Shown in pieces: positions 20,808 to 28,729 of a stretch of DNA of 64,000 nt. Numbering within the stretch: the stretch's first letter is position 1; every line of letters begins with the position of its first letter. This DNA is from Acidobacteriaceae bacterium (GTDB taxonomy: Bacteria > Acidobacteriota > Terriglobia > Terriglobales > Acidobacteriaceae): the NCBI GenBank assembly GCA_025462735.1, contig JAOAPC010000008.1, positions 62,001 through 126,000 on the forward strand, in the 5' to 3' direction. A model generated the notes under the pieces. It ran no database searches. It was not told the origin of the DNA and saw only the letters and a list, made by a program, of their open reading frames with translations. The translations under genes were made by a program, and so were the position numbers.

Positions 20808-21488
20808 CTATTGCACCTGGGCGAGTTTGGACTCAGTGTGGTTCGAAATTAACAAATGCTCCAAGCCTTCTATTCCCTCCCCCGTGCGGGCGGACACTTG
20901 CAGGATCGGCATGCCGGGCCGAACCCCGTGGATATTTCGGATTAGCAACTCCAGATCGAACCCAACCGCTTCAGCTAGATCAAGCTTGGTTATAAGGGCG
21001 ACATCGGCAGTGTTGAATATGGTGGGATATTTCAGCGGCTTGTCCTCACCTTCGGTAGTTGAAACCAGCACCAGGCGCAAGTCTTCACCTAAATCGAAGC
21101 TAGACGGACAGACCAGGTTGCCGACATTTTCAATAAAGAGATAATCCAGATCTTCGACGGCCCAGCCCTCAAGCGCTCTCTCCACCATGCCGGCATCAAG
21201 ATGGCAAACCGTGCCAGTCGTGATCTGCTTTACCGGCGCGCCAGAACGCGCCAGCCGAGCGGCATCATTTTCAGTCGCAAGATCACCAACCAACGCTGCG
21301 ACACGATATTCCCGACGGAGGTCCGTAAGTAAGCGTTCAAGCAGAGTTGTTTTTCCTGACCCGGGGCTGGAGACCAGGCTGACCACCCGCGTCCCGACGC
21401 TCTGGAATCGATCGCGCAGGCGGTGCGCAAGCAGATCATTTTCTTTGAGGACCTTTCGCCTGACCTCGACCATGCGGGGTTCGTTCAC
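20808..21488 (-). CDS. hypB: Hydrogenase nickel-insertion GTPase HypB
   Basis: The 226-residue GTPase has a P-loop at 41-48 (SPGSGKTTL), the G-domain metal region GTVCHLDAGMV that holds the nickel/zinc-binding Cys-His pair, and the guanine-specificity-like segment ITKLDLAE. It lacks the His-rich N-terminal nickel store found in some HypB proteins. With HypA it delivers Ni to the large-subunit precursor. The GTG start at 21488 overlaps the hypA stop by 4 bases (GTGA). It is the last gene of the hydrogenase run. Confidence 0.95.
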   Translation of the reverse strand: MNEPRMVEVRRKVLKENDLLAHRLRDRFQSVGTRVVSLVSSPGSGKTTLLERLLTDLRREYRVAALVGDLATENDAARLARSGAPVKQITTGTVCHLDAGMVERALEGWAVEDLDYLFIENVGNLVCPSSFDLGEDLRLVLVSTTEGEDKPLKYPTIFNTADVALITKLDLAEAVGFDLELLIRNIHGVRPGMPILQVSARTGEGIEGLEHLLISNHTESKLAQVQ

Positions 21489-21832
21489 GTGACCAACTCC
21501 ATGGCCGTGATCTCTAATTCCTCGCCGCGAAGCACTCGTTCACCTAGTGCTCCGCAGTTCGCGCAGATCAGCACCGGAAAGGAGCGCGTAGGCCTTTCGA
21601 CACCACACACCGGGCAAAAGATTGCGACTTCTACGTCTTCGATGAGCAGCCGCGAGTTCGCCAGCGGAGTGCCCTCACACGCGACGCCGTATGAGAATGA
21701 CAGAGCATCTTTGTCCACGCCGCTCAACCGACCCAGGCGCAAATGGACTGCCTCGACATGCCCGGATTTCTGGCGGTCAAGTTCTTCCAGCACACCATCC
21801 ACAATGTTGAGCGCGATCGAGAGTTCGTGCAT
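21485..21832 (-). CDS. hypA: Hydrogenase nickel metallochaperone HypA
   Basis: The 115-residue protein begins MHELSIA, with His2 providing the Ni site. Its zinc ribbon uses C73/C76 and C90/C93 (CPVC and CANC). HypA supplies nickel to the hydrogenase large subunit together with HypB. It lies between the 31-residue membrane microprotein gene and hypB, with a gap of about 10 bases and an overlap of 4 bases. Its presence in this operon means Ni delivery is encoded with the enzyme rather than borrowed from elsewhere. Confidence 0.95.
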   Translation of the reverse strand: MHELSIALNIVDGVLEELDRQKSGHVEAVHLRLGRLSGVDKDALSFSYGVACEGTPLANSRLLIEDVEVAIFCPVCGVERPTRSFPVLICANCGALGERVLRGEELEITAMELVT

Positions 21833-21842
21833 AACACGCGCC

Positions 21843-21938
21843 TTACATCATCTTCATTTTGGTATAGCGCTGAATATCGCCACGGAAGTAGATCAGTGTA
21901 GCTATGGTCGCAGCAATCCCCCACATTAGCATTTTCAT
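21843..21938 (-). CDS. 31-residue single-span membrane microprotein (DUF6893-like)
   Basis: Read directly from the minus strand: ATG at 21936-21938, TAA at 21843-21845, 31 codons. The peptide starts MKMLMWGIAATIATLIYFRG, a hydrophobic helix of about 15 residues followed by a polar, basic end (DIQRYTKMKMM). AGGAG sits about 6 bases before the ATG, and the gene is spaced neatly between the protease and hypA genes. I recall small DUF6893 proteins in actinobacterial group 1h hydrogenase operons and this one looks alike; that match is from memory. A membrane anchor or adaptor for the otherwise soluble hydrogenase is an inference. Confidence 0.75.
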   Translation of the reverse strand: MKMLMWGIAATIATLIYFRGDIQRYTKMKMM

Positions 21939-21970
21939 TCGCGTCTCCTCTTTTCTCGTATCGTTTTCAG

Positions 21971-22468
21971 CTACGCAGCTATTGCCTGACTGGTGGCGCC
22001 AACAATTAAACCTTCTATCACGCGGACAGCTTCGTCGAGTGCGCCGCCAACAGGCTCACTAAGACCGATCCTTCCCTCGGCACTTGGCTCAATCGTTTCC
22101 GGTTCACAACCAACTACAAGCAGCCGCCCCACTTTTCCTCCCAGTGCGTTGACCAACTGCAGCACAGCGACTGGATTCATGCTGTGAGCGTCCAGCGCTT
22201 CTTGACCGACACTGTTTTCTGGAAGATCAGGCTCCAACACATACAGAGTTCCCGGTTTGCCGCCGCGCGGCAGAGCGTCAACCAAAATCGTCAGATCCCA
22301 ATCGTTCATGAGGGCAAAAGCGAGGTCGTAGCTGCGAATCCCGAAATCGACGACGCTCACACCGCCCGGCATCTGGCGCGCTGCAAGCCCTTTGGCAACT
22401 TCGACTCCGAAGGCATCGTCGCCGAGAAATACATTGCCCACGCACGCGACCAGGACCTTACAGCTCAT
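21971..22468 (-). CDS. Hydrogenase maturation endopeptidase (HyaD/HycI family)
   Basis: The 165-residue protease carries the N-terminal signature GNVFLGDDAFG (about 11-21) and the later metal positions D64 (ILVDALP) and H95 (DAHSMNP) expected for the Ni-sensing site. It should trim the C-terminal extension of HhyL after H577 once Ni is inserted. Residues after about 120 (CEPETIEPSAEGRIGLSEPV) match the usual C-terminal part. The start overlaps the preceding gene by 11 bases, consistent with translational coupling inside the hydrogenase operon. Confidence 0.92.
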   Translation of the reverse strand: MSCKVLVACVGNVFLGDDAFGVEVAKGLAARQMPGGVSVVDFGIRSYDLAFALMNDWDLTILVDALPRGGKPGTLYVLEPDLPENSVGQEALDAHSMNPVAVLQLVNALGGKVGRLLVVGCEPETIEPSAEGRIGLSEPVGGALDEAVRVIEGLIVGATSQAIAA

Positions 22469-22778
22469 GCGAGACCTCGCTATTCAAAGTTAATGGCTCA
22501 ATTTCTTCCGGCGAGAAAAAGAAGCGGTGTCCCGGCTGTCGCAACATCCCAAGATCTCTGCCAGGGTCGTCTTCGATCACAACGGCCACATGCACCCGGT
22601 CATCGAAATCCCGTTCAATTGCCTCTATAATCGCGACTTTCCCCTTCAGCGCCATATCCATGATGTCCGCTGCCTTTTGCGGCCAAATGCGCACGCGATC
22701 TCCAGGGTTAACCTCTATTCCGAAGACCGTTACGCTCTGTATTGGCGTATTGTCGAGGTCGGGATTCCACTCTGTCAT
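22458..22778 (-). CDS. Conserved group 1h hydrogenase-operon protein, 106 aa
   Basis: The ATG at 22778 is preferred over a GTG at 22787, because AGGTGA lies 9 bases before the ATG. The small acidic protein has a beta-rich core: FGIEVNPGDRVRIWPQ (about 20-35), ALKGKVAIIEAIERDFDDRVHVAVVIEDDPG (about 44-75) and a closing PGHRFFFSPEEIEPL. The pattern matches, from memory, unnamed proteins next to actinobacterial group 1h hydrogenases. No catalytic motif is visible. It sits between orf328 and the protease gene and overlaps the latter. A maturation or assembly role is inferred only from position. Confidence 0.8.
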   Translation of the reverse strand: MTEWNPDLDNTPIQSVTVFGIEVNPGDRVRIWPQKAADIMDMALKGKVAIIEAIERDFDDRVHVAVVIEDDPGRDLGMLRQPGHRFFFSPEEIEPLTLNSEVSHEL

Positions 22779-22798
22779 TTTTCTCACTCACCTAACCT

Positions 22799-23785
22799 TC
22801 ACGCCGATTCCCTGCGCGGCGGCGTGCTCGGACGCAGGCCGCGAATAGTACCATGAGTCCGCATTAACTGTTCGCGCGCTCTTTCCTCCGTGCGTTGCAG
22901 AAGGTCCCGGACCCGGTCGTCGGCGATCCGCATCTCAGCTTTTTCTTCGTTGGTTAGTGTCATCACCCGCAAGGTCAGCATCTCGTCAATTTCCGTGGCG
23001 TCGTAGAAGTCGCCAGAACTCTCAGGAGCAATCTGCGGATAATCGTACAGAACGATGGGCGAGCACAGCAGCATGTCACGCTCTCCAGCATTGCCGACCA
23101 GCACAGGGAAGTTGCCAATGTTTTTGCACGCTCTCACCGCCTCACGAAGCTGCTCCGGTGGATCGAGCAGCGAAACGAACTCAGCGCCGTTTACCGCAAG
23201 GATAGTGTGAGCGGAAAGCAAAGAACGGAGCAACGCCGAATTGCGATTGCAGGCGCCGCCTGACAATCGAGTCTCATTTGTCACTTCGATCGCGAGTTTC
23301 ATCACGCCATCGCTTATTCGCTCCGAAGCTACCGTTACTGTTCCCGTCAACTCGTGCTGAGTGCGGCTGATGTGTCCCCCCACGCGACCGGCGGGTTTCA
23401 CGAGCGATTCCGTTTCAGCGCCAGCAGGAAAATTAAATGGTACGCAATGCCAATCTGTCGGCAGAGTCAGTCTGAATTCAACGGAGCGTTCAATTCCCTC
23501 GTCCCGGCTCTCGATCCCTTGGTCATCTCGCGTCACTTCATTGGAGACAAGCTGCAAAAACCGGACTTGTACGTCGATCCTGGCATCGCCTTTGAACTCC
23601 AGCAGGCACTCGGAATGCATGACTGAGCGCTCGGTTCCGCTTTGCACTTCCTCGTATGCCGGCGGATAGAGGATGCCGAATGTCCATCGTTGCTGGTTTT
23701 TTATCGCCGAGTGCCGGTATGGATAGAGCATGTATCCTTCGTAGAGCACCGCGTCCGCGACTTTCTTAGCTAATTCGCGGTTCAT
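22799..23785 (-). CDS. Conserved group 1h hydrogenase-operon protein, 328 aa
   Basis: The protein opens with NRELAKKVADAVLYEGYMLYPYRHSAIKNQQRWTFG (segments, residues about 2-37), a characteristic start I associate with hypothetical proteins in actinobacterial group 1h operons. The middle (about 45-220) is beta-rich, while the last 70 residues are helical and charged. Several Cys and His residues are scattered without a clear cluster motif. The ATG at 23785 overlaps the DUF6084 stop as TGATG. It is soluble, without signal peptide. Function is unknown; a dedicated chaperone or electron-transfer adaptor is possible. Confidence 0.8.
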   Translation of the reverse strand: MNRELAKKVADAVLYEGYMLYPYRHSAIKNQQRWTFGILYPPAYEEVQSGTERSVMHSECLLEFKGDARIDVQVRFLQLVSNEVTRDDQGIESRDEGIERSVEFRLTLPTDWHCVPFNFPAGAETESLVKPAGRVGGHISRTQHELTGTVTVASERISDGVMKLAIEVTNETRLSGGACNRNSALLRSLLSAHTILAVNGAEFVSLLDPPEQLREAVRACKNIGNFPVLVGNAGERDMLLCSPIVLYDYPQIAPESSGDFYDATEIDEMLTLRVMTLTNEEKAEMRIADDRVRDLLQRTEERAREQLMRTHGTIRGLRPSTPPRRESA

Positions 23786-24423
23786 CACCTGACCCCTGCG
23801 GTCAGGCTCAGCATGCGCTCAAATGCCTGATCCCAATTGGAAATACCGTGCCGCGCTCTATACTCATTGATCCGCTCAAATACCTCGCGGCGCACGCATA
23901 TCCACGCGGTACCGGGATAATGTAGATCCATCATTTCCTTCCAAACCCGAATTGGCAGGCGGCAAGTCGCGTCGCGGTCCCACGGGATTTGCGCGATTTG
24001 CAGACCCATCGGCCCCGGGTAGAAAACGGTTCCGCTGAATAACAACGTCATCGGAATTTCGCCGTCCTCTAATCCGTAAATATATTTGGTGATCGCCACA
24101 TTGAAATCGAACGTGCACTGAACCTGAATATCAATCACAGTCGTGCCCGTAAAGCCGGGGATGTTCACATTCTCATTCGTCCAAAGCAGTGGATGTAGCG
24201 ATTTGCTCCAGCGCTCCGGTTCGCCGAATAGTTCATTCAGGCGCTCCTGCTCGGCAGGCGTATAGCGGCGCCGCACCGGCTCGATCTGAATCTGAGCTCG
24301 AAGTGCAATGGAATGGACTGCCCCCGGTTCCGAGTTCGCGATCCGCACCTTGAACGATAGTTGCGGCACTGCCGAGTTGGGTGTAGCGACGATATCTTCT
24401 ACCTGGAATCGAAGTTCAGGCAC
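23785..24423 (-). CDS. DUF6084-like protein of the hydrogenase operon
   Basis: A GTG at 24423 follows GGAGA by 4-5 bases and gives a 212-residue protein starting PELRFQVEDI, which fits the usual start of this family. The frame stays open to 24447. Recognisable stretches are IQIEPVRRRYTPAEQERLNELFGE (in parts, about 48-72), PLLWTNENVNIPGFTG (about 80-95) and GEIPMTLLFSGTVFYPG (about 124-140). The DUF6084 assignment rests on memory of actinobacterial operons. No function is known. Its overlap with both neighbours suggests co-translation with DUF5947 and orf328. Confidence 0.8.
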   Translation of the reverse strand: MPELRFQVEDIVATPNSAVPQLSFKVRIANSEPGAVHSIALRAQIQIEPVRRRYTPAEQERLNELFGEPERWSKSLHPLLWTNENVNIPGFTGTTVIDIQVQCTFDFNVAITKYIYGLEDGEIPMTLLFSGTVFYPGPMGLQIAQIPWDRDATCRLPIRVWKEMMDLHYPGTAWICVRREVFERINEYRARHGISNWDQAFERMLSLTAGVR

Positions 24424-25051
24424 ACTGTCTCCGTGAGAACTCATCAAGCTGCTGAAAGAAACGATCGATTTCTTCCCAGACTTCCGTTCCTCCGGAAAGT
24501 CCGCGCCAGTGCTTTCGAATTAAGCCGACAAGCCTGAAGCATTGGTCAATCGGAGCGCGGTAGTATTGCGGCCGACCGGAGATGCGGTTCACCAGCAGGG
24601 CTTCAACATCCGGCTCGAACTTCTTCAGCTCGGGATTGCGATCAGCAATTGCGTTCCAGTATTCGAGGTCGAGCGACGACTCCATTGCACCACCCGGACT
24701 CGGATACTGCGCGACAACTCGCCCGGCAACGCTGCTGTGCACAAAAAACGCCAAATTGATGGGAATCAACAAGCTGTCCCATTCCTGGTCGTCCATTGCG
24801 AAATGCTGGAGTCGAATGACATCTCGCGGAACTTGGCGATAGCGCTGCCGCGAGTTGCCATTGAACAGAATCGCGCAAGGATCACATGCGCAAGCTAGAC
24901 AGCGCTTGTCGAGTTCGAGCAAATGATGATGGGCGAGACCAATCGGAGCAGCACACAGCTCGCACATTTGGGTCCGCTCTTGCGGTTTGCGCACAAACTG
25001 CTGCAGAGTGGCGAGCGGCGCCCTTCGAATATTGCTGGTTAGTGCTGCCAT
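24416..25051 (-). CDS. DUF5947-like Cys-rich protein of the hydrogenase operon
   Basis: The 211-residue protein has a cysteine cluster near its N-terminus: CELC (about 31-34) followed by CLACACDPC (about 53-61). It looks like a zinc or iron-sulfur knuckle and includes the HHHLLELDKR segment between. The rest (about 75-211) is mixed and soluble, with YRQVPRDVIRL directly after the cluster. The family name is given from memory of Streptomyces group 1h operons. The cysteines make metal binding or electron transfer likely, but this is inference. It is preceded by orf62 with an 11-base gap. Confidence 0.8.
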   Translation of the reverse strand: MAALTSNIRRAPLATLQQFVRKPQERTQMCELCAAPIGLAHHHLLELDKRCLACACDPCAILFNGNSRQRYRQVPRDVIRLQHFAMDDQEWDSLLIPINLAFFVHSSVAGRVVAQYPSPGGAMESSLDLEYWNAIADRNPELKKFEPDVEALLVNRISGRPQYYRAPIDQCFRLVGLIRKHWRGLSGGTEVWEEIDRFFQQLDEFSRRQCA

Positions 25052-25062
25052 GAGTCTTTGGC

Positions 25063-25251
25063 CTAGGCCGGCGGTAAATGCGGCATTCGCGGATCAATCG
25101 GCGCTCGCTTATCGGCGTTGATTCCGGTGGCGTCGCGAGAGGTGCGCCCATCGCCTTCGCGTCCCGGCTCTTTCCGGCCCTCGTAGGCCCATTCCTCTCC
25201 GCGTTTTGTTCCCGGAGTGTGCGCGTCGATATCAGGCCGTGGATTCTTCAT
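25063..25251 (-). CDS. 62-residue hydrophilic protein (orf62) in the hydrogenase operon
   Basis: The ATG at 25251 has an excellent ribosome-binding site (AGAGGAG, 7 bases upstream) lying inside the end of the NifU-like gene. The peptide is hydrophilic, rich in Arg, Glu, Gly, Asp and Pro, and nearly devoid of hydrophobic residues (e.g. GTKRGEEWAYEGRKEPGREG, ending DPRMPHLPPA). It is probably intrinsically disordered. The strong site and position in the run support translation. No family is recognised with confidence. Confidence 0.65.
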   Translation of the reverse strand: MKNPRPDIDAHTPGTKRGEEWAYEGRKEPGREGDGRTSRDATGINADKRAPIDPRMPHLPPA

Positions 25252-25798
25252 ATTTTTTCTCCTCTTTGGGCGATGGCTGAATCATGTTGACTGGAACGAA
25301 ACCAGATGCAGAAGAAGTCACGCCCTCAGCCACAATTTCCACAACTTCGGGAGCAACTTCCCGGATCGTTTGCTCTACGACTTGTTTGATCGAATCAGTC
25401 GATGAACCGCAACCGTGTCCTGAACTTTCAATCTTGACTCGCACAACTGTGTCGCTGATGTCGATCAATTCGACGCTCGCGCTCTGCTTTCGGAGTTGCG
25501 GACTGACCTTCTCAATTGCACTCTTCACCCGGCCTTCAAGAGCCAGCGGATGAACGCCATAGAGTACGAGCAGTCCACAAATTAGTGGATCGCTGCCGAG
25601 TTTTGCGAGCGCGCTGCGGCCTGCTTCTGATTCGGTGAGTACCTCCACAATGCGGGAAAAACCCGCGCCGTGAAGATCCATCAGCGCCTGCATAAGTTCG
25701 AGCGCGGTGGCGCGCGCACTCTCGTCCTCGATTGCGGTAACGCGCTCAACCATTTGCTCGACTTTTGTTGCCTGCTCCTGGAACTCGCCGCTGTTCAT
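25232..25798 (-). CDS. NifU-like protein with an incomplete CxxC motif
   Basis: I start the gene at 25798 (MNSGEFQEQATKVEQ), 8 bases after the hhyL stop; the frame stays open for 34 codons into hhyL. The 188-residue product has a helical N-terminal part (about 1-70) and a C-terminal NifU-type Fe-S scaffold domain (about 85-165). In that domain the usual GxCxGCPSST becomes SGHGCGSSTDSIKQ, so only the second cysteine remains. NifU-like genes accompany actinobacterial group 1h hydrogenases and are thought to help load the Fe-S clusters. Loss of one cysteine may change or prevent cluster transfer. Confidence 0.85.
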   Translation of the reverse strand: MNSGEFQEQATKVEQMVERVTAIEDESARATALELMQALMDLHGAGFSRIVEVLTESEAGRSALAKLGSDPLICGLLVLYGVHPLALEGRVKSAIEKVSPQLRKQSASVELIDISDTVVRVKIESSGHGCGSSTDSIKQVVEQTIREVAPEVVEIVAEGVTSSASGFVPVNMIQPSPKEEKKYEESTA

Positions 25799-25806
25799 AT
25801 GAGGGC

Positions 25807-27609
25807 TCACTTGTTTCCCATCATGCCGAACATCGGTGAGTGCCTGGTTTCGAGCACCTTGCCATTGCCAAGATACATGTGCACTCCGCAGGGCAAACAC
25901 GGGTCGAAGCTGCGCACTGCGCGCATGATGTCGATGCCCTTGAATTTGTCCGGCCCGTTCTCTTCAAAGATCGGCGTGTTCTGTACTGCGTCTTCGTAGG
26001 GACCAGCGGTTCCGTAGGTATCGCGCGGATTTGCATTCCAGCAAGTCGGCGGATACGGATGGTAGTTGGCGATCTTGCCGTCACGGATCACGACGTGGTG
26101 CGACAATACGCCGCGCACCGCTTCATGGAAGCCGCATGAAATCGCTTCCTCCGGCACTTTGAATGGCGCCCACGTCTTCGAGCGGCCAGCCATCAGTTCT
26201 TCCATGGCCTTCTCGCAGAAGAAGAGAGCCGCAGCCGCAGCGTACGCCTGGAAATAAGTGCGCGCCCGATCGCGCTCGATGGCATTGCTCCACTTTGGAA
26301 TTTTCCATTCGAAGTTGGTCTCCGGCATGGTTGCCGTTTTCGGGAAGTTAATTTTCACGCTGTTGCCGGTGGCTTTGATGTAGCCAATATCCACCACTCC
26401 TGAAAGCGCTGTGGACCACAGACGAGCGATCGGGCCGCCGCCAGTATCGAGCGCAAGGTGATCGCCGGTGCGTTTATCGAGCCAACGCGGCGACATCACC
26501 CAAGTGTAGTTTCCGTTGAAGTCCCGTTTTTGGGGACGTGGAAGTGTCGTTTGATTCCACGGATGCCGCTTGTCGATTTTGTTTCCAAGCGGATCGGTCT
26601 TCACGAATGTTTCTTCGTTCTGCCAGTCGTCGTAAAACGAGCTGCCCAGCAGAATGCGAATACCGAGATTGATATCCACTAGGTCGTTAGTGACCAACTT
26701 GCCGTCCACCACAATCCCGGGGGTCACAAACATACTGCGACCCCAGTTAGACATGGTTTCGTACCTGTAATCGCAAACGTCGGGGTTGTTGAATGCACCC
26801 CAGCAGTTCAACAGAACTCGGCGCTCGCCAACTTTTTCATAGCCCGGCAAAGCCTCGTACCAGAAGTCGAAGAGATCATCGTGCAGGGGCAGACATTTCT
26901 TCATGAACTGCACATACTTCATCAAGCGCGTGAGGTAATCCGTGAAAAGCTGGATGGTCGCAACGGTTCCAACCCCGCCCGGATACAACGTCGAAGGGTG
27001 CACGTGCCGCCCTTCCATCAGGCAAAACATCTCCCGCGTCAGACGGCTTATGACTAATGTTTCGCGATAGAACTCGCCAGTGAACGGGTTCAGCGCCGTC
27101 ATGATGTCAGCGATGGTGCGATAGCCGTGCTTGTCGGAGTTGGGGGCTTTTTTCTTCTGCGCTTTTTCCCAGAGGCCAGGATTGGTCTCCTTCACCATCT
27201 GCTCGCAGAAATCCACGCCGACCAGATTGTCCTGAAAGATGTTGTGGTCGAACATGTACTCTGCGGCTTCACCGAGGTTGATGATCCACTCGCCAAGGTT
27301 TGGAGGTTTTACTCCGAAGGCCATGTTCTGCGCGTAACAGGCGCATGTCGCGTGATTGTCGCCGCAGATGCCGCAAATGCGGCTGGTAATGAAATGCGCG
27401 TCCCGCGGGTCTTTCCCCTTCATAAAAATGCTGTAGCCGCGGAAGATGGACGAGGTGCTGTAGCACTCCGCCACCTGCTTGTTCTCGAAATCAATTTTGG
27501 TAAAGATGCCGAGGCTGCCCACTATGCGGGTGATAGGGTCCCAGCTCATCTCGACCAAGTTCCGCTTTTTGCTCGGAGTTCCGGTTAATGGCTCTGTAAT
27601 CGTTCCCAT
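25807..27609 (-). CDS. hhyL: Group 1h [NiFe] hydrogenase large subunit
   Basis: The 600-residue catalytic subunit binds the NiFe(CN)2CO centre through C79/C82 (RICGICGDNH, L1 motif) and C571/C574 (DPCLPCGVH, L2 motif). A 23-residue C-terminal extension after H577 should be removed by the maturation protease. The L1 sequence RICGICGDNHATCACYAQN is typical of the actinobacterial/acidobacterial high-affinity class (group 1h, formerly 5). It oxidises H2 and passes electrons to HhyS. GGATGG before the ATG acts as ribosome-binding site. It directly follows hhyS with a 19-base gap. Confidence 0.96.
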   Translation of the reverse strand: MGTITEPLTGTPSKKRNLVEMSWDPITRIVGSLGIFTKIDFENKQVAECYSTSSIFRGYSIFMKGKDPRDAHFITSRICGICGDNHATCACYAQNMAFGVKPPNLGEWIINLGEAAEYMFDHNIFQDNLVGVDFCEQMVKETNPGLWEKAQKKKAPNSDKHGYRTIADIMTALNPFTGEFYRETLVISRLTREMFCLMEGRHVHPSTLYPGGVGTVATIQLFTDYLTRLMKYVQFMKKCLPLHDDLFDFWYEALPGYEKVGERRVLLNCWGAFNNPDVCDYRYETMSNWGRSMFVTPGIVVDGKLVTNDLVDINLGIRILLGSSFYDDWQNEETFVKTDPLGNKIDKRHPWNQTTLPRPQKRDFNGNYTWVMSPRWLDKRTGDHLALDTGGGPIARLWSTALSGVVDIGYIKATGNSVKINFPKTATMPETNFEWKIPKWSNAIERDRARTYFQAYAAAAALFFCEKAMEELMAGRSKTWAPFKVPEEAISCGFHEAVRGVLSHHVVIRDGKIANYHPYPPTCWNANPRDTYGTAGPYEDAVQNTPIFEENGPDKFKGIDIMRAVRSFDPCLPCGVHMYLGNGKVLETRHSPMFGMMGNK

Positions 27610-27628: not shown

Positions 27629-28729
27629 TTATGCGATTTTGCGGCTGGGGCGCGATCTGTAGGCGCCGGCTTTCGGTTGATATCCGGTGATGAGTTCGTG
27701 GCCGCGTTGGCGCCACTCCGGCTCGCCGTTGACGGTATTGTTGGTAATGGCTCGCAGCGCGCGAATCAGTTTTCCGTACACAGTGAGCGCGGCAGTAGAG
27801 AAACGCGCGCCTGAAGGCTCATCCATGAATGGCATGAACATGTCCGGAAACCCCGGCATGGTGCACCCGATGCAGATCCCACCGACGTTCGGGCATCCGC
27901 CGATGCCCCGCATCCAGCCGCGTTTGGTCACGTTGCAGTTGACCACTGGTCCCCAGCAGCCGACTTTCACCAAACACTTCGAAGATCCGTACTCGATTGC
28001 GAAGTCATCCTGCTCGTAGTACGCGGCGCGGTCACAACCTTCATGTACCGTCTTGCCGAACAGCCACGTGGGGCGAAGTTGCTGGTCGAGCGGGATCATC
28101 GGGGCAATACCTGCCGCCTGAAACAGCAAATACGTCAAGGTCTCCATGAAGTTGTCCGGCTGCACCGGGCATCCGGGAACGTTCACAATCGGCAAGCCGG
28201 CTTTGGATCGCCAGTCCCAGCCAAGGTAGTCGGCGAGTCCCATACACTGGGTAGGATTGCCTGCCATGGCATGAATGCCACCGTACGTAGCGCAAGTCCC
28301 CGCGCCGACAACCGCCAGCGCTTTGGGGGCGAGCCGGTCGATCCATTCTGTGGTCTTGATAGGCTGACCGGTTTTTGGGTCAGTGCCCATCGCCGCCCAA
28401 TAACCTTCGTCTTTAATATCTTCATTCGGAATCGAGCCTTCCACCACGAGTACGAAGGGATCGAGTTCGCCGCGCTCCCCTTGATAGAAGTACTTCATGA
28501 AGTCATCGCCGACTTCGTAGGCGAGCACCGGGTTGTGGAGATGTACCCTTGGCAGTCCGGGAATGGCTCCGAGCAGAACATCCTCGATACTGGGTTGCTC
28601 AGCGGTCGTTACGGATACTGAATCGCCGTCACAGCCGAGACCGGCGGTGATCCAAAGAATATGAACGTCCGTGACGGGAGCAGGTGCAGAATCTTTTTTG
28701 CGGGAGAAAGGAACCGGTTCAGCGGGCAT
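27629..28729 (-). CDS. hhyS: Group 1h [NiFe] hydrogenase small subunit
   Basis: The 366-residue electron-transfer subunit carries three cluster sites. The proximal site uses C33, D36 (GLGCDGDS), C146 and C187. The distal one is likely H229, C232, C252 and C258, and the medial one C265, C279, C286 and C289. Asp in place of the second cysteine of CxxC is known from the Ralstonia eutropha actinobacterial-type enzyme and defines this class. There is no twin-arginine signal or membrane anchor, so the enzyme should stay in the cytoplasm. A strong GAAGGAGG precedes the ATG. The 132 bases upstream may hold an internal promoter. Confidence 0.96.
   Translation of the reverse strand: MPAEPVPFSRKKDSAPAPVTDVHILWITAGLGCDGDSVSVTTAEQPSIEDVLLGAIPGLPRVHLHNPVLAYEVGDDFMKYFYQGERGELDPFVLVVEGSIPNEDIKDEGYWAAMGTDPKTGQPIKTTEWIDRLAPKALAVVGAGTCATYGGIHAMAGNPTQCMGLADYLGWDWRSKAGLPIVNVPGCPVQPDNFMETLTYLLFQAAGIAPMIPLDQQLRPTWLFGKTVHEGCDRAAYYEQDDFAIEYGSSKCLVKVGCWGPVVNCNVTKRGWMRGIGGCPNVGGICIGCTMPGFPDMFMPFMDEPSGARFSTAALTVYGKLIRALRAITNNTVNGEPEWRQRGHELITGYQPKAGAYRSRPSRKIA

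Follow-up and report, generated by a model that had tools for sequence, protein, structure and literature searches.

A DUF6893-related microprotein that accompanies group 1h [NiFe]-hydrogenases is a candidate membrane anchor

The 64,000-nucleotide stretch of Acidobacteriaceae DNA analysed here (the window) carries a [NiFe]-hydrogenase gene cluster in the order HhyS, HhyL, NifU-domain protein, DUF5947, DUF6084, p329, p109, HyaD, microprotein, HypA and HypB (Table 1). The cluster belongs to group 1h, an assignment made through matches to Cupriavidus necator HhyL and to PDB entry 5aa5 and not through HydDB. Over 598 residues the window HhyL shares 80.6% identity with that of C. necator H16, whose enzyme, 5aa5, is the sole PDB sequence to match the window HhyL at E<=1e-50. 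The microprotein frame of 31 codons, MKMLMWGIAATIATLIYFRGDIQRYTKMKMM, begins 32 bases 3' of the hyaD stop and ends 10 bases 5' of the hypA ATG. The frame, its coordinates and a ribosome-binding site had been recorded in a first-pass annotation made from the sequence alone, and each was borne out.

Table 1. Features of the group 1h hydrogenase cluster in the window, in operon order
Feature	Coordinates	Strand	Remarks
Group 1h small subunit HhyS	27629..28729	-	PF14720, PF01058; without strong hydrophobic span
Group 1h large subunit HhyL	25807..27609	-	PF00374; PDB 5aa5 (HofG); 80.6% to pHG1 copy
NifU-domain protein, at the HhyE position of mycobacteria	25232..25900	-	PF01106 1.4e-13; putative start
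DUF5947 protein	24416..25051	-	PF19372 2.7e-71
DUF6084 protein	23785..24447	-	PF19562 1.2e-85
p329, unnamed accessory protein	22799..23788	-	
p109, unnamed accessory protein, fused to p329 in many relatives	22458..22787	-	
Hydrogenase maturation protease, HyaD/HycI family	21971..22468	-	PF01750 4.7e-15; TIGR00072 3.7e-31
GAGGAG ribosome-binding site	21946..21951	-	read from sequence; 7 nt 5' of ATG
31-aa single-helix microprotein, divergent relative of DUF6893	21843..21938	-	ATG at 21938, TAA ends at 21843; stop codon included
HypA	21485..21832	-	PF01155 1.1e-26
HypB	20808..21488	-	PF02492 (CobW/HypB/UreG) 4.6e-23

The microprotein had been described as a single hydrophobic helix with a basic end. 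AlphaFold2 models one helix (residues 2-30, mean pLDDT 87.8), but the hydrophobic stretch of the window copy is short, ~16 residues, and borderline as a membrane span. Its top 19-residue hydropathy is 1.23, not above that of soluble operon neighbours. Across the cores of 59 family members (alignment A1), hydropathy is high, with a mean of 2.37 over 17 residues. No clear membrane span was found by hydropathy in any hydrogenase subunit of the window, and no twin-arginine start is visible in the sequence of HhyS, in agreement with the earlier statement that the enzyme has neither.

The frame is not peculiar to the window. HhyL was used to fetch loci from named genomes, and the best 80 of 582 were taken; by record title these belong to the Acidobacteriota, Pseudomonadota, Planctomycetota, Verrucomicrobiota, Chloroflexota and Actinomycetota. 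Judgement was confined to 68 loci, as 11 have no hyaD match and L048 ends too early. In 61 of these 68, drawn from the best 80 of 582, a plus-strand frame with the ending [RK][YL]x5M-stop lies within 350 bases of hyaD; the same motif occurs in 1 of 1,239 random 350-base segments of the same loci. Among the remaining seven, L114 carries a TY variant, and the copy in L115 sits a little farther along. In L050 and L093 the microprotein lies upstream of the hydrogenase genes, and in L082, L085 and L088 it lies elsewhere in the genome. Recurrence in related operons, on which the first-pass annotation had let its proposal stand or fall, was found in nearly all loci judged. Its phrase that the microprotein is hidden in this operon was an understatement, since the frame is found in group 1h clusters generally.

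A short-form profile picked out 75 family frames from the 36,847 ORFs of loci and window, with the next best at E 1.6, in a run that is partly circular because members built the profile. The closest relative of the window copy is a 61%-identical microprotein at the same operon place in L049. With both the window and L049 removed from the profile, the window frame ranked first of 1,667 six-frame window ORFs (E = 0.019) and L049 scored 7.2e-5; with L049 included, the window frame reached E = 1.6e-4. The window frame is real and more than chance. Direct tblastn of 299 Terriglobia genomes with the 31-aa protein was set aside as a means of finding the family; it gave 17 weak matches besides self (E 0.05-0.83), none at a copy found by profile.

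The suggested likeness to DUF6893 (PF21833) holds for the family, since 54 of the 59 A1 members match the Pfam model at E<=1, the best at 2.8e-14. It does not hold for the window copy taken singly, which has no match to PF21833 at E<=10 and is absent from the matches of its own genome too. As it does not match the Pfam model, the window copy is classed as a divergent relative and not as a scored DUF6893 member. Its link to PF21833 runs through intermediates and is weak without L049.

Within A1 the span varies widely in sequence and the tail is conserved, with the consensus [DE][IL]xRY[LI][RK][IM]xxM, Tyr in 59/59 and Arg in 57/59 members. Most A1 rows were chosen by a pattern that allowed Y, L or F and required a terminal Met, so the terminal Met is not evidence alone; nor is the tail Tyr absolute, since G281 has RE for RY. 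Pooled pN/pS is 0.25 for Burkholderiaceae copies, with pN<pS in 55 of 55 pairs, and 0.35 for alphaproteobacterial copies (35 of 36 pairs). Judged by these ratios, the two sets of relatives are under purifying selection. A frame so tiny, 10 bases 5' of hypA, might be taken for a leader peptide, a translational coupler or a spurious frame with no functional product. That is barely conceivable, and for the family it is already contradicted by conservation across six phyla, by pN/pS of 0.25-0.35, by downstream genes that differ between loci and by copies that exist away from the operon.

The distribution of the microprotein follows that of the enzyme. The 299 genomes of Terriglobia, the class of the window, were searched for HhyL and with the A1 profile. 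HhyL occurs in 25, and the microprotein (E<=1e-5) in 22 of those 25 vs 0 of the other 274 (Fisher p 2e-30, with the threshold set after the list was seen and relatedness uncorrected). Only one of the 22 copies, that of the window, is identical to an A1 row. Of the three other HhyL genomes, G014 carries a short form on another contig (E 8.3e-4) together with a long form at the site, G262 has nothing but the long form, and G281 has a divergent short copy directly after hyaD. Genus g4 is mixed: eight genomes have both genes, and the nine listed without HhyL have no copy at E<=1e-5. Weak matches (E 2e-4 to 0.007) occur in five Terriglobia without HhyL; four were read and none ends at a stop, and the fifth, in G186, covers profile positions 9-29 within a 660-aa frame. 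Relative to HhyL, nine of the 22 copies lie ~4 kb downstream, five ~12 kb downstream, four upstream on the other strand and four on another contig. At E<=1e-5 in Terriglobia, the microprotein gene has moved from its usual place several times and has never parted from the hydrogenase.

A similar pattern was obtained in 296 genomes of Actinomycetes, the class of the Streptomyces meridianus genome G306, with Pfam's own, independent DUF6893 profile. The cut-off was passed in 47 genomes, HhyL was found in 55, and both in 45 (p 7e-41), that is, 45 of 55 with HhyL vs 2 of 241 without. In 43 of the 45 the microprotein lies on the same contig and strand, 1.55-4.64 kb downstream of HhyL, and in two it lies on another contig. 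Without HhyL, G351 has a match inside a 795-aa frame, a false hit, and G407 (L229; no HhyL at E<=1e-100) has hypB, a truncated HhyS, the microprotein, hyaD, hypC and hypF, as named by frame reading. G407 thus reads as a decayed 1h operon still holding the microprotein. Ten genomes with HhyL lack a Pfam match. Among them, divergent copies lie in the operons of G397, G413, G532 and G566 (A1 E 9.6e-5, 0.022, 0.037 and 0.016), and G382 and G414 have doubtful copies only. No copy was found by the Pfam or A1 profile in G426, G478 and G488, which have HhyL, and no microprotein was found in G569, whose HhyL match, at 41% identity, probably belongs to another hydrogenase group. Among 20 hydrogenase genomes from six phyla, 14 pass the Pfam cut-off; the remaining six fall below it, yet all six have A1-type copies. 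In Terriglobia and Actinomycetes the microprotein is specific to 1h genomes. A plasmid of Streptantibioticus cattleyicolor (L132) has an HhyL relative (71%) and, downstream, a gene that reads like a cytochrome oxidase; no convincing microprotein was found on it.

Single-span shapes are common, and a small membrane protein of general function (stress, toxin-like) could merely ride with the cluster. Co-occurrence already contradicts such a highly improbable origin: the gene is absent at E<=1e-5 from every Terriglobia genome without the hydrogenase (0/274), and all 15 over-threshold Pfam matches in the 20 hydrogenase genomes lie, by coordinates, in the operon.

The neighbours of the microprotein gene point in two directions. 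hyaD is the upstream neighbour in 55 of the 57 copies scored; the exceptions are L093 and L050, the L050 copy lying on the minus strand and not being scored by the neighbour-counting script. Downstream genes vary (hypF, hypA, hydS, hypC); in 42 of the 57 copies scored the first gene detected on that side is a hyp gene, and hydS is next in eight. Acidobacteriaceae also have a long form at the hyaD site, ~65-70 aa, with a span, a 35-residue tail and the same C-terminal end, and several genomes with the long form carry the short form elsewhere. The long form follows hyaD in L053, L054, L056-L058, L069, L070, L080, L081 and L103 and stands in tandem with the short form in L062 and L075. At L113:14954-15592, hyaD and the microprotein are one open frame with no stop between, either a natural fusion or an error.

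Other loci place the microprotein beside HhyS. Among 288 Verrucomicrobiota, HhyL occurs in three genomes, G309 (L092), G662 and G772. The latter two are Methylacidiphilum-like and carry the microprotein shortly before hhyS (A1 E 0.008 and 0.010), in G772 without an in-frame ATG and with GTG/TTG starts only. NifU/HhyE, DUF5947 and p109 gave no match within the 15 kb examined in G662 and G772, and are therefore not needed as partners of the microprotein. A report on strain Kam1 likewise describes no hhyE near hhySL (PMC6688271). Two of five Methylacidiphilum genomes have the microprotein, both with HhyL; G674 and G692 are without HhyL in the phylum sample. In Edaphobacter aggregans (L093:5050-6313), an extra gene for an HhyS-like protein (68% to the window HhyS) lies 167 b after a short microprotein; it is an orphan with no HhyL beside it, 2.6 kb upstream of a normal hhyS-hhyL pair. 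HhyS, HhyL, HyaD, p329 and the microprotein are common to clusters of the window type, the Actinomycete clade L284 and the Methylacidiphilum locus L301.

The position next to hyaD and the hyp genes would suit a membrane-tethered assembly factor that recruits the precursor of the large subunit, HyaD or Hyp proteins to the membrane and is absent from the finished enzyme. The shared open frame in L113 and the joint retention of the microprotein, hyaD, hypC and hypF in the decayed G407 operon also agree with such a factor. We nevertheless consider it unlikely. The microprotein adjoins hhyS in the Methylacidiphilum-like genomes and the orphan HhyS in L093, and one Actinomycete clade (L284) has it after DUF5947, with hyaD elsewhere. 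To our knowledge, other hydrogenases mature with the same Hyp and HyaD proteins and without such a microprotein gene, which was counted against this role.

We weigh anchoring above assembly and give a slightly better than even chance that the microprotein is a subunit with a single span and a basic cytoplasmic tail by which HhySL is docked at the membrane. As proposed from sequence, it would be a dedicated membrane protein of group 1h [NiFe]-hydrogenases and a divergent DUF6893 relative. One helix would span the inner membrane, its N-terminus facing outwards and its short basic tail, [DE]-[IL]-x-R-Y-[LI]-[RK]-[IM]-[RK]-x-M-COOH, lying in the cytoplasm. The tail would bind the hydrogenase, most likely HhyS or the HhySL pair. 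The enzyme would thereby be held at the membrane face, where electrons from the distal iron-sulfur cluster could leave near the quinone pool or a respiratory partner.

Membrane insertion and topology are predicted from the charge rule and hydropathy. In 59 of 59 cores the C side holds more Lys and Arg than the N side (mean 3.73 vs 0.66), a count that is favourable by construction because N-terminal extensions, some of them strongly basic (L075, L083), had been trimmed from 15 of the 59 rows. With a basic C side and a near-neutral N side, the tail is predicted to be cytoplasmic. HhyS shows no visible twin-arginine start and no strong span, and tail and enzyme should therefore share the cytoplasm. 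No cofactor site is visible in the helix, which can therefore serve for docking, shaping or recruitment but not for conduction. Binding of the microprotein to HhySL and anchoring of the enzyme are inferred only. G662, G772, the eight copies followed by hydS and the E. aggregans orphan point to HhyS as the partner, and the upstream gene in 55 of 57 copies scored points to HyaD. An amphipathic C-tail was considered and dropped; its helical hydrophobic moment, 0.35 vs 0.40 in shuffles, is not above expectation.

Biochemical descriptions of two 1h enzymes bear on anchoring. In Methylacidiphilum strain SolV the enzyme was shown to be membrane-associated, with no span, signal or known partner (PMC7174314). 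Its Km is 140 nM in membranes vs 300 nM when isolated, and the authors also name oxygen damage of the isolated enzyme as a possible cause of the lower affinity (PMC7174314). The SolV operon encodes two other hypothetical membrane proteins, MfumV2_0985-6 (PMC7174314), which could be partners as well.

The 1h enzyme of C. necator is described as cytoplasmic and of low affinity (PMC7174314), which counts against anchoring. It is not soluble for want of the gene, an explanation ruled out by a clear microprotein copy on pHG1 (L128:14699-14797). Either lysis breaks the contact or the microprotein does not suffice by itself. The C. necator microprotein gave no match at E<=10 to PDB chains, including those of the structure of its enzyme, 5aa5. 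PHG070 is the protease and PHG072 is hypF3 (PMC3702609), and from these tags we infer that the microprotein gene was originally PHG071, a tag named in no paper of the open-access literature searched. The microprotein is absent from the PLSDB gene table, known to be incomplete, for two pHG1 records, and it is missing from the gene tables examined even for the model strain C. necator H16. In the same incomplete table it is listed for none of L128, L129, L130, L131 and L133, where the small subunit of the 1h enzyme appears under the label 'hydrogenase expression protein HypE'. Operons of 1h enzymes rebuilt from gene tables could omit it.

A membrane helix tightly linked to the enzyme might do more than dock it. 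A bundle of copies could give access to quinone, or could dock the enzyme on an oxidase supercomplex, comparable to the HucM stalk of Huc (PMC10017518). We regard such a port or adaptor as improbable: there is no evidence of an oligomer, the helix is far too short for a stalk, and it is the span that varies widely in sequence while the tail is conserved. Docking at the membrane is preferred. A broader proposal from the sequence comparisons, whose chances we put somewhat short of even, is that group 1h hydrogenases would have a third structural subunit, almost obligatory and so far overlooked, in the DUF6893-type microproteins. These microproteins would act as a membrane receptor that is lost on purification, with lower affinity as the result, and HhyS would recognise the RYxxIRxM carboxyl tail.

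p329 occurs in 89 of the 94 loci of at least 12 kb and is fused to p109 in 36 of 54 measured. It has no convincing Pfam family. Its AlphaFold2 model (pLDDT 76.8) was rejected as a clue to the partner of the microprotein: the fold most like it, that of a domain in the DISARM protein DrmA (Z 11.6, rmsd 3.6, 177 aligned; Foldseek TMq 0.31), gave no functional lead.

Atmospheric H2 is oxidised by group 1h hydrogenases, which support the survival of dormant soil bacteria and are held responsible for much of the soil H2 sink. According to published accounts, among them one of July 2026, the group 1h enzyme has no known anchoring subunit (PMC13332983; PMC7174314), and the open-access literature searched, as far as its texts were available, yielded no microprotein of group 1h. 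The microprotein is a concrete candidate for the missing membrane-holding part of this enzyme. A gene of 31-36 codons that tracks the enzyme through six phyla also provides a first functional context for DUF6893, a family named in no paper of the open-access literature searched.

Finally, the microprotein can be set beside known systems. PF21833 DUF6893 is matched by its relatives and has a similar length (model of 32 positions), but the window copy scores nothing against the model, whose title carries no function. Cytochrome b anchors are haem-bearing, multi-span subunits, whereas the microprotein has one helix and no visible cofactor site. The likeness is in role, as these anchors tether the classical membrane hydrogenases of group 1 and hand electrons on to quinone (PMC6883350). 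HhyE, a NifU-domain protein, is likewise an operon partner and is needed for 1h H2 oxidation in Mycobacterium smegmatis (PMC6883350), but it is a putative iron-sulfur protein, and Methylacidiphilum, which retains the microprotein, showed no HhyE close to hhySL. The first-pass annotation had pointed to a dedicated membrane-associated partner of Huc, the group 2a enzyme of M. smegmatis: HucM is non-catalytic and links this atmospheric-H2 hydrogenase to the membrane (PMC10017518). HucM differs in having 188 residues against 31 aa and in forming a tetrameric coiled-coil stalk that is peripherally membrane-associated (PMC10017518). CydX and SdhF are single-span small subunits that complete respiratory enzymes. 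They resemble the microprotein, by description only, as tiny membrane proteins of a respiratory enzyme. Such a subunit is a known kind; as far as we have seen, its presence in the group 1h class is new.
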